Assembly (NCBI GenBank): GCA_021798935.1
Contig: JAJZBL010000001.1
Location: 62,001-126,000, forward strand
Length of the DNA: 64,000 nucleotides
From: Microcaldota archaeon
Lineage (GTDB): Archaea; Micrarchaeota; Micrarchaeia; Micrarchaeales; Micrarchaeaceae
Direction: 5' to 3'
In this document: piece by piece, positions 48,279 through 51,613 of the stretch
How positions within the stretch are numbered: the stretch's first letter is position 1
Layout of the letters: every line of letters starts with the position of its first letter
Program-made: the position numbers and the translations under genes
Notes under the pieces: generated by a model
Database searches by the model: none
Told to the model about the DNA's origin: nothing
Seen by the model: only the letters and a program-made list of their open reading frames with translations

Positions 48279-48415
48279 GGGGTTATAGCATAACTTGGCA
48301 GTGCAGCAGACTCCAGATATTTATTAGGTATTGAGCGCAAAGCGATGATTAGAATCTGGAAATTTGATAATTATGAAGTAATCTGCCAATCGGGGTTCAA
48401 ATCCCCGTAACCCCA
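48279..48415 (+). tRNA. tRNA-Trp(CCA), 64-nt intron approx 48317-48380
   Basis: GGGGTTA/TAACCCC acceptor, GCAGA/TCTGC stem, CTCCAG then insertion, CGGGGTTCAAATCCCCG T arm. Confidence 0.9.
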
Positions 48416-48838: not shown

Positions 48839-51613
48839 ATGAATAGAGCTTGCATAGTGTTAGGAATGTCTGTTTATGATAACTTTATATCAAAGTATAA
48901 GAAATTTACACTTATACAGGAAAAGGCAATGCCAATAATAGCCGAAGGAAGCAATTGCCTAGTCATAGCTCCAACAGGTTCCGGCAAGACTGAGGCTGCA
49001 GTATTGCCTATTATTGATATGGCATCAAAGATAAAAGGCAGTGGAATAAAAGTGCTTTATATAACACCACTGCGGGCTCTTAACAGGGATATGCTTGGCA
49101 GGCTTAGGTGGCTTGCGGATTTAGCCGGCCTCACTATAGGGGTAAGGCATGGTGATACAACTAATTCTGAAAGGTCAAAGCAGGTACGCAGTGCTCCCGA
49201 TATTCTTGTAACAACCCCAGAGTCTTTGCAGAGCATGCTTCCCACTAAAGGGATGGGAATAAAGCTTGCTAATGTTAAATTTGTGATAATAGATGAAATT
49301 CACGAATTTTACTTCAACAAGAGAGGTGCACAGTTGTCAATAGGGCTCGAAAGGCTGGAGGAGAAGGCACCTAACTTCCAAAGAGTCGGATTAAGTGCAA
49401 CAGTAAAAGATCCTGATCTAGTCAAAAGGTATCTAGCTGGTTCTAGGGAATGCAAGGTGGCACAGATATCTGATGGCAGGGATTTTTTAATATCTATAAA
49501 GATGCCTGAAAAACCGAAGCACAATATGAGTCAAATGGTTGATAAATTTGGATTGGATGAGCCATCTGCAGCTAGATTGGAATGCATGGCCGATGAGATA
49601 AAAGAATCTGCATCCACCTTAATATTCGCAAATACAAGGCAGATTGTAGAAGCACTTGGAAGCAAACTTTTATACCTTGACAAAATAGACCCATTTGGAG
49701 GAATAGGGGTACATCACGGTTCATTGGACAAAGATGAGAGAATCGAAATAGAGGACCGTTTCAGAGAGAATAAGATAAAGAGCATAATAGCTACTAGTTC
49801 CCTTGAACTTGGGATTGATATAGGAAGCATCAATAAGGTTATACAATACGGTTCCCCAAGGCAATCATTAAGGTTAGCGCAGAGGGTAGGTAGATCAGGG
49901 CATTCAATCTTAAAAACCCCTGAAGGCACAATAATATCCACAGGAATTATAGATACTTTAGAGTCTATGGCTGTAATAGATAACCTAAAAGCAAAGGATC
50001 TTGAGAGTTTTGATGTCCAGAAAAATGCACTTGACGTGCTTGCAAACCAAATATGTGGGATAGTATTGGACAAGAACTCCTGTTCCATAGATGATATTTA
50101 TAGTATAGTGCGCAGATCTTATAATTACTCAAATTTAGAGAAAAGTGCATTGATAAACAACCTTAAATTTATGGATAGCATCAAGCTTATAGGATTTGAT
50201 GGTAAGACTGTAGTTGCTACAAGCAGGACTAGGATGTATTATTACGATCATTTAAGCGTTATACCAGATTCTCACAGGTACAGAGTTCGCAATGTAGCGA
50301 ACAACAAGATAATCTCTTCTTTAGATGAAGAGTTTGTATCAAATAATATAGATGAGAATTCCATCTTTATAACAAAAGGCCTCCCTTGGCGTGTTATAAG
50401 TATAGATAAGGACACGATAGTTGTTGAACCCTCCACAAATCTGGATGCAGCGATACCAGATTGGAGTGGAGAGGATATACCAGTCAGCTATTCTGTATCA
50501 TCCCGCATGCGTGATATAATAGGCAAGAACAGCTTGAGCAATTATATAGACAAGACAGTATACGAAAAAGTCGAAAGATTCTTAAAGAACCAATCAGATC
50601 ACTGGATGCCTTCTAAGAAAAAACTGGTAGTAGAGATATATGATAATTATACTATCCTTTACACATGGTTAGGTTCACTTGCAAATGACGCACTTTCAAG
50701 GCTAATTGCAAAGTACCTAACTATGAATGCAGGCCACAGCATCAATATAAAATCTTCTCCTTACTTAATTTTCTTTGATGTTTCCGATGAGATTGCAATA
50801 AAGAGTATGCTTTTAGGCATTAATCCTGAAAGTGTATACCAGAAGCTTAAAGAGTCTATAATAGAGACCGATTTTTTCAAATACAAATTTACAAGAGTAG
50901 CTAAAATTTTCGGCATAATAGACCGGGATGCAATATTAAGTAAGAGCCTTACAAAGCACATAATATCTACATTAATAGGGTCTCCAGTTTATGAAGAGAC
51001 TTTAAGAGAAATAATAGAAAATTATTTTGACATTAAGAATCTTACAGACTTCTTCAAACAGATACATGAAAGAAATCTCGAGTTAATAATTGAAAAGAAC
51101 AAAAAGCAGTCACCGCTCACAAAAGCAATCCTAAAATCAGCATATTACAACAAAGAGCTCATAATGCCCCTTATGCCAAATGACGAGTTGGTAAATTCCT
51201 TCTCTAAATATACCTTAGATAAAAAGGCTAACATTATCTGCACTTATTGTGGATTTGAATTCAAAAGAAATCTATCGGAAATAATCGATGAACCTAAGAT
51301 ACTTTGCCCTATGTGCCAAAGCCCTATGGTAACAATAAATATGGGCAGTTATATAAATGTAATAAAGAAAATAAAAGAAAAGAGAGAGTTGACAGAAACT
51401 GATAAAAGAGTTCGCAGGGAAATGATGGCTAATGCAGATTTAGTTTATTCATATGGCGGAAGGGCTGTGGCTGCATTGTCAACTTACGGTGTTGGCCACA
51501 GGACTGCAGCCAGAGCACTTCTAATGCAAAGAACCAGCAAAGAGAAATTTTTTGTAGATCTAATAGAGGCCCAAAAGCAATTTATAAAAAATAAAAAATA
51601 TTGGTCTTTATAA
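48839..51613 (+). CDS. Lhr-type superfamily 2 helicase
   Basis: IAPTGSGKTEAAVLP, IIDEIHEF, GLSATVKD, RVGRSGHS; C-terminal Zn motif CTYCG...CPMC. Confidence 0.93.
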   Translation: MNRACIVLGMSVYDNFISKYKKFTLIQEKAMPIIAEGSNCLVIAPTGSGKTEAAVLPIIDMASKIKGSGIKVLYITPLRALNRDMLGRLRWLADLAGLTIGVRHGDTTNSERSKQVRSAPDILVTTPESLQSMLPTKGMGIKLANVKFVIIDEIHEFYFNKRGAQLSIGLERLEEKAPNFQRVGLSATVKDPDLVKRYLAGSRECKVAQISDGRDFLISIKMPEKPKHNMSQMVDKFGLDEPSAARLECMADEIKESASTLIFANTRQIVEALGSKLLYLDKIDPFGGIGVHHGSLDKDERIEIEDRFRENKIKSIIATSSLELGIDIGSINKVIQYGSPRQSLRLAQRVGRSGHSILKTPEGTIISTGIIDTLESMAVIDNLKAKDLESFDVQKNALDVLANQICGIVLDKNSCSIDDIYSIVRRSYNYSNLEKSALINNLKFMDSIKLIGFDGKTVVATSRTRMYYYDHLSVIPDSHRYRVRNVANNKIISSLDEEFVSNNIDENSIFITKGLPWRVISIDKDTIVVEPSTNLDAAIPDWSGEDIPVSYSVSSRMRDIIGKNSLSNYIDKTVYEKVERFLKNQSDHWMPSKKKLVVEIYDNYTILYTWLGSLANDALSRLIAKYLTMNAGHSINIKSSPYLIFFDVSDEIAIKSMLLGINPESVYQKLKESIIETDFFKYKFTRVAKIFGIIDRDAILSKSLTKHIISTLIGSPVYEETLREIIENYFDIKNLTDFFKQIHERNLELIIEKNKKQSPLTKAILKSAYYNKELIMPLMPNDELVNSFSKYTLDKKANIICTYCGFEFKRNLSEIIDEPKILCPMCQSPMVTINMGSYINVIKKIKEKRELTETDKRVRREMMANADLVYSYGGRAVAALSTYGVGHRTAARALLMQRTSKEKFFVDLIEAQKQFIKNKKYWSL

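Follow-up and report, generated by a model that had tools for sequence, protein, structure and literature searches.

A tRNA-Trp intron in Micrarchaeales with the features of a box C/D guide RNA for C34

The 64,000-nt stretch of DNA analysed here (the window) carries a tRNA-Trp gene interrupted by an intron within its anticodon loop (Table 1). The gene was recovered by the Rfam tRNA model RF00005 at 49.9 bits, with a large insertion within the anticodon loop; ARAGORN, run with bacterial settings, did not detect it because of the intron. A large ORF beside it (48839-51613, plus strand) has the look of an Lhr-type helicase when its translation is judged by eye. Re-reading of the sequence bore out the positions given in an earlier reading of the locus (the original prediction) for the intron, ATGATTA, the 12-nt spacer and the TTGA that follows it, together with the observation on which that reading was built: ATCTGGA is the exact complement of TCCAGAT, and the G facing C34 is the fifth nucleotide upstream of TTGA.

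Table 1. Features of the tRNA-Trp gene and its intron, in positions of the window (BHB, bulge-helix-bulge).
Feature	Position	Strand	Details
tRNA-Trp gene	48279-48415	+	anticodon CCA 48313-48315
5' exon, tRNA positions 1-37	48279-48316	+	C34 = 48313; from sequence and RF00005
BHB core helix, 5' strand, C32-A36	48311-48315	+	pairs with 48374-48378
Guide target UCCAG/AU (DNA TCCAGAT; slash, exon-intron junction)	48312-48318	+	crosses 5' exon-intron junction
Intron, 64 nt, with guide RNA inside, canonical site 37/38	48317-48380	+	from sequence; same site in parsed relatives
D box TTGA	48331-48334	+	NTGAGC in 111/119 distinct introns
Apical stem G48335-C48343, C48336-G48342, closing the C/D k-turn	48335-48343	+	32-sequence alignment
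k-turn bulge GAU, standard 3 nt	48344-48346	+	follows from the GC/GC stem reading
C box ATGATTA	48345-48351	+	perfect ATGATGA is the commonest form, 57/119
Spacer between C box and D' box, 12 nt, GAATCTGGAAAT	48352-48363	+	
Guide ATCTGGA, 7 bp	48354-48360	+	pairs with U33-G37 and intron A1-U2; G48359 opposite C34
D' box TTGA	48364-48367	+	exact N+5 spacing; degenerate among relatives
C'-like box ATGAAGT	48373-48379	+	5 nt past D'; overlaps BHB 3' strand
BHB core helix, 3' strand, UGAAG	48374-48378	+	A48376 opposite C34, mismatch
3' exon, A38 onward	48381-48415	+	from sequence and RF00005

The elements of the intron lie in the linear order D-C-guide34-D'-C'. The D and C boxes fit a box C/D k-turn, with the tandem pairs G48347.A48334 and A48348.G48333 followed by U48349.U48332, and the GC/GC apical stem was unchanged throughout the alignment of 32 sequences. 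The original prediction had placed the upstream TTGA correctly, but the CGC-AAA-GCG hairpin that it drew there gives way to the conserved GC/GC stem. It had also taken TTGA-hairpin-ATGATTA for an internal k-loop; with its GC stem this is the strong C/D k-turn, and the looser motif is TTGA-TAATT-ATGAAGT, the C'-like box of which was missing from that account. As was said at the time, the box motifs of the window sequence are off consensus; the C'-like ATGAAGT, too, differs from it at two of seven positions. No Rfam C/D family matched the intron above threshold (the highest, sR38, reached 18.8 bits where the gathering score is 50), but these families are guide-specific, so that the absence of a match does not define the class.

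BLAST, run with the gene as query on 99 related genomes, recovered tRNA-Trp from most of them, and the intron lay at the identical site in 77/77 parsed loci. Full-length matches to a covariance model of the gene (E ~1e-24 to 1e-41) came from two families, both of one order, the remaining families of the class having shorter or different introns. In 12 Micrarchaeales genomes that lacked a strong model match, the pattern used found no intron-less tRNA-Trp. When one genome per GTDB species was scanned with a sequence pattern, 115 stretches matched, almost all titled Micrarchaeota among the matches listed, Ca. Micrarchaeum sp. A_DKE included; from records with bacterial titles no tRNA gene was parsed. 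Order-wide counts refer to 119 distinct introns, which are related sequences and hence non-independent.

The guide was present in all 119 introns, TGGA facing U33-A36 being invariant while the linkers vary freely, and the C34 loop was invariant among relatives. There are two guide types. In the GGAA type (n = 84, the window included) CTGGAA is invariant and the duplex has 7 bp only, with an invariant A opposite C32; in the GGAG type (n = 35) TGGAGC is invariant and the pairing reaches two nucleotides further toward the anticodon stem (C32, G31). The C box reads ATGATGA, ATGATTA or GTGATGA in 100/119 introns, and in the D box UGA is kept, while its first position holds U, A or G in place of C. 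A D'-like NNGA was found exactly at N+5 in 76/119 introns, versus at most 6/119 at any flanking offset tested. By type, NNGA occupied N+5 in 46/84 GGAA and 30/35 GGAG introns (flanking offsets +3 to +11: at most 6/84 and 5/35, respectively), and NTGA did so in 16/84 and 25/35; 38 of the 84 GGAA introns have no NNGA at N+5, and the consensus CTGA occurs in none of that type. Of all the evidence for the putative methylation guide, the register signal is the most specific. Box conservation had been proposed as a check on the original prediction, and boxes and guide proved to be kept across two families, with a position-specific D' register.

The guide pairs across the exon-intron junction, which fits the unspliced precursor as its target. 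The duplex reaches intron nucleotides 1-2 (100%/96% and 97%/89% paired), whereas mature position 39 would pair with the guide in just 5-9%; position 39 is C in most genomes, yet the guide has A there and pairs with intron A1 and U2 instead. A relative (L057) whose intron starts with AAC has the guide GTTCTGG, and f11 introns (family labels are anonymous labels from the search tool), which begin with TTC, have GAATTGG. In known Trp introns methylation must precede splicing (Grosjean et al. 2008; PMC2584109). The L057 intron, which is 85 nt long, also has an extra hairpin (CAGGTTT...AAACCTG) near its 5' end, the first strand of which resembles a position-39 guide and has no D box after it.

The splicing structure is built from another segment of the intron. 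Its core helix comprises C32-G48378, U33-A48377, the C34.A48376 mismatch, C35-G48375 and A36-U48374, and the outer helix is made by intron nucleotides 2-6. Both the GAAG at the intron 3' end and the C34.A mismatch are invariant in the GGAA type (84/84 each); the helix may keep this mismatch because A48376 is at the same time residue four of the C' box (RUGA). As the BHB forms without ATCTGGA, it leaves the guide complementarity unexplained and in fact excludes it; the original prediction had allowed that a BHB might fully account for this pairing, and it does not. For pre-tRNA-Trp, Bortolin et al. in 2003 reportedly found that the guide and BHB folds exclude each other, and in the description by Clouet d'Orval et al. 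in 2001 both duplexes are said to cross exon-intron junctions; the window intron agrees with both accounts. ARMAN-2 has a splicing endonuclease of the epsilon-2 type that can work on non-canonical motifs (PMC12397907, PMC4033280).

Nop5 and L7Ae-family proteins are encoded in the window's genome, and fibrillarin was found in 40/41 genomes searched, again including that of the window. Together with conservation, the N+5 register and the separate BHB segment, the presence of genes for these RNP proteins supports the original prediction of a C34 guide, and we consider it highly probable that the intron is a box C/D guide RNA in pre-tRNA-Trp that directs Cm34 before splicing. Of the two motifs, the D-stem-C k-turn (48331-48351) would be the stronger binding site for L7Ae and the D'/C' motif (48364-48379) the weaker one, and the L7Ae-bound intron would recruit Nop5-fibrillarin. 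The guide would pair, in cis or on another molecule, with U33-G37 and the first two intron nucleotides, leaving C34 five nucleotides from D', where it would be 2'-O-methylated (Cm34) prior to splicing. Because C32-A36 are needed by guide duplex and BHB alike, these are mutually exclusive and the two reactions would be sequential; we infer the order methylation, refolding to the BHB, cleavage and ligation.

An intron of the same genus as the window (L004, genome G001) has CAAA as its D' box, which makes efficient guiding in this genus the least certain step. The intron could thus be a relic, an ancestral C/D guide decaying in the family and no longer methylating C34 in the window's genus, and loss of the position-39 guide, a D' box degenerate in much of the GGAA type and a duplex that is short and always mismatched at position 32 would all suit such a history. 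We regard it as unlikely, since decay would not preserve a guide core and C box that are invariant or nearly so in 84 introns among randomised neighbouring linkers; A48376 of C' is also retained despite the cost of the BHB mismatch, and the D' box of the window itself is TTGA. The guide duplex is part of the structure of lowest energy that RNAfold gives for anticodon arm and intron together (-15.1 kcal/mol), so that intramolecular pairing may compensate for its shortness. Such pairing could also mean that ATCTGGA simply belongs to the splicing structure (the BHB or a hairpin of the pre-tRNA) and does not act as a guide. This is quite improbable, given that the BHB arises from the invariant GAAG at the intron 3' end and excludes the guide duplex, and that splicing predicts neither NNGA at N+5, nor an upstream D/C k-turn, nor the recurrence of the guide in stand-alone C/D RNAs (described below). 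The C/D RNA might serve mainly some other target (rRNA or another tRNA), with the C34 match secondary, and a second guide could lie upstream of the D box; but the sequence there varies, its pairing with tRNA-Trp does not exceed that of shuffles (mean longest match 3.87 versus 4.03), the C34 guide is the conserved one, and we give this possibility very little credence. Coincidence in an A+T-rich intron, to which the off-consensus boxes of this single sequence might point, has a negligible chance of being correct: among 200,000 dinucleotide shuffles of the window intron, 889 held any 7-nt complement including C34, 21 held a complement with NTGA at N+5 and none held these with an upstream C box, and conservation in two families already refutes it.

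As a box C/D guide for C34, the intron finds its precedent, as the original prediction had said, in H. volcanii, where the intron guides Cm34/Um39 (PMC2584109, PMC7994747). Guides in tRNA-Trp introns have been described in H. volcanii and Pyrococcus (sR50) and listed for at least 29 archaea (PMC7994747, PMC2584109), and the archaeal tRNA-Trp intron, in which a box C/D RNA is nested, has a median length of 65 nt (PMC4090602). With 64 nt the window intron has the archaeal norm for tRNA-Trp introns, and the evidence supports its membership in this known group rather than the "minimal" or "compact" version first proposed. It shares with the 103-nt H. volcanii intron and sR50 the location in tRNA-Trp, the C/D motif and a putative C'/D' motif, C34 at N+5 and a guide that takes in intron nucleotides and would therefore have to act before splicing (PMC2584109, PMC7994747). 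Unlike the Haloferax intron, those of Micrarchaeales have no second guide for position 39 (0/119 in the window's order); compared with euryarchaeal Trp guides, their C' box overlaps the BHB strand and D' is degenerate. The C/D sRNA in the 66-nt tRNA-Met intron of N. equitans likewise has C/D elements with the D box upstream of C (PMC3491384), although host tRNA and target both differ; in the permuted N. equitans sRNA24/26, circular forms restore the usual box order (PMC3491384). The chemistry and the position, 34, are the same as for stand-alone C/D sRNAs directed at tRNA wobble positions (sR49, tRNA-Met), which unlike the intron are separate genes and are reported to be single-guide (PMC7994747).

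Other Micrarchaeota families showed several arrangements of the intron. Introns of 80-114 nt with guides for both C34 and position 39, each at N+5, were found outside the window's order in f28, f11 and part of f17 (L221, L299, L305, L308, L310, L314) and match the Haloferax pair of targets (C34, 39). Boxes nearer to consensus (CTGA, ATGATGATG) mark these dual-guide introns and other outgroups within the class, which share the guide core and only in part add the position-39 guide. Introns of 38-63 nt in f10 and one f17 genome (L218, L220, L300, L303, L307) carry the C34 guide and, behind it, just one D-hairpin-C element, the hairpin being UUCG in L218 and L220; these single-motif introns are truly minimal guide versions, those of 38-50 nt occurring in sister families. 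Finally, f4, f6, f7 and f12 have short Trp introns without the guide.

Searching 74 genomes of f4, f6, f7, f9 and f12 with the pattern TGATGAN{1,12}YTGGAGNNNTGA yielded candidate stand-alone C/D RNAs at 37 places in 31/74 genomes, versus 2 with the reversed pattern (candidates fall within L368-L396, for example L373, L384, L389, L394 and L396, from f4, f6, f7 and f12). Over 23 distinct sRNA-intron combinations, the guides made 44 extra pairs into the intron of their own genome, whereas 20,000 re-assignments, in which kinship is ignored, gave 20 on average and never more than 36. The predicted stand-alone C34 guides thus appear to covary with the introns of their own genomes. At least 11 of the RNAs also carry the guide (G/A)CAGGTTT or a near variant, with position 39 at N+5 and the 3' junction spanned; in L396 this guide is GCAGGTAT where the intron ends in AT, not AA. 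In six stand-alone RNAs no Rfam C/D family scored above threshold (sR3 reached up to 25.6 bits versus 41), and matches to a stand-alone position-39 guide within the window were not in excess (11 versus 13 expected). Judging from these sequences, the guide seems to have been relocated in related families from the intron to a separate RNA gene. The tRNA-Trp guide has been published as always intronic (PMC2584109) and tRNA-targeting sRNAs as using only one guide (PMC7994747); the predicted Micrarchaeota RNAs, which in contrast to the sR49 type often hold C34 and position-39 guides for one tRNA, would break both statements.

Across Micrarchaeota, the C34 (and 39) guide is likely to be a relocating module, found as a dual-guide intron, a C34-only intron, a single-k-turn intron of 38-63 nt, and a stand-alone dual-guide sRNA that would target both junctions and coevolve with short introns. 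If this is true, it contradicts the always-intronic view and makes the origin of intron-encoded guides directly testable, these lineages being material for testing guide movement into or out of introns. The predicted self-guided tRNA methylation would also extend to a phylum of ultra-small archaea whose genomes are reduced, and in which k-turn, guide core and register appear to be the parts kept by selection. The families amount to a natural experiment, as an intron without the guide often goes with a separate guide RNA gene that tracks the target intron, which suggests that Cm34 on unspliced tRNA-Trp is under selection, despite the tolerance of Haloferax for deletion of the intron (PMC11408192). 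Among the stand-alone candidates, one lies ~60 nt downstream of the tRNA-Trp gene (genome G162), and two genomes have two or three copies of the C34 guide, located on different contigs in G103 (L376-L378) and 2.4 kb apart in G108 (L386, L387).
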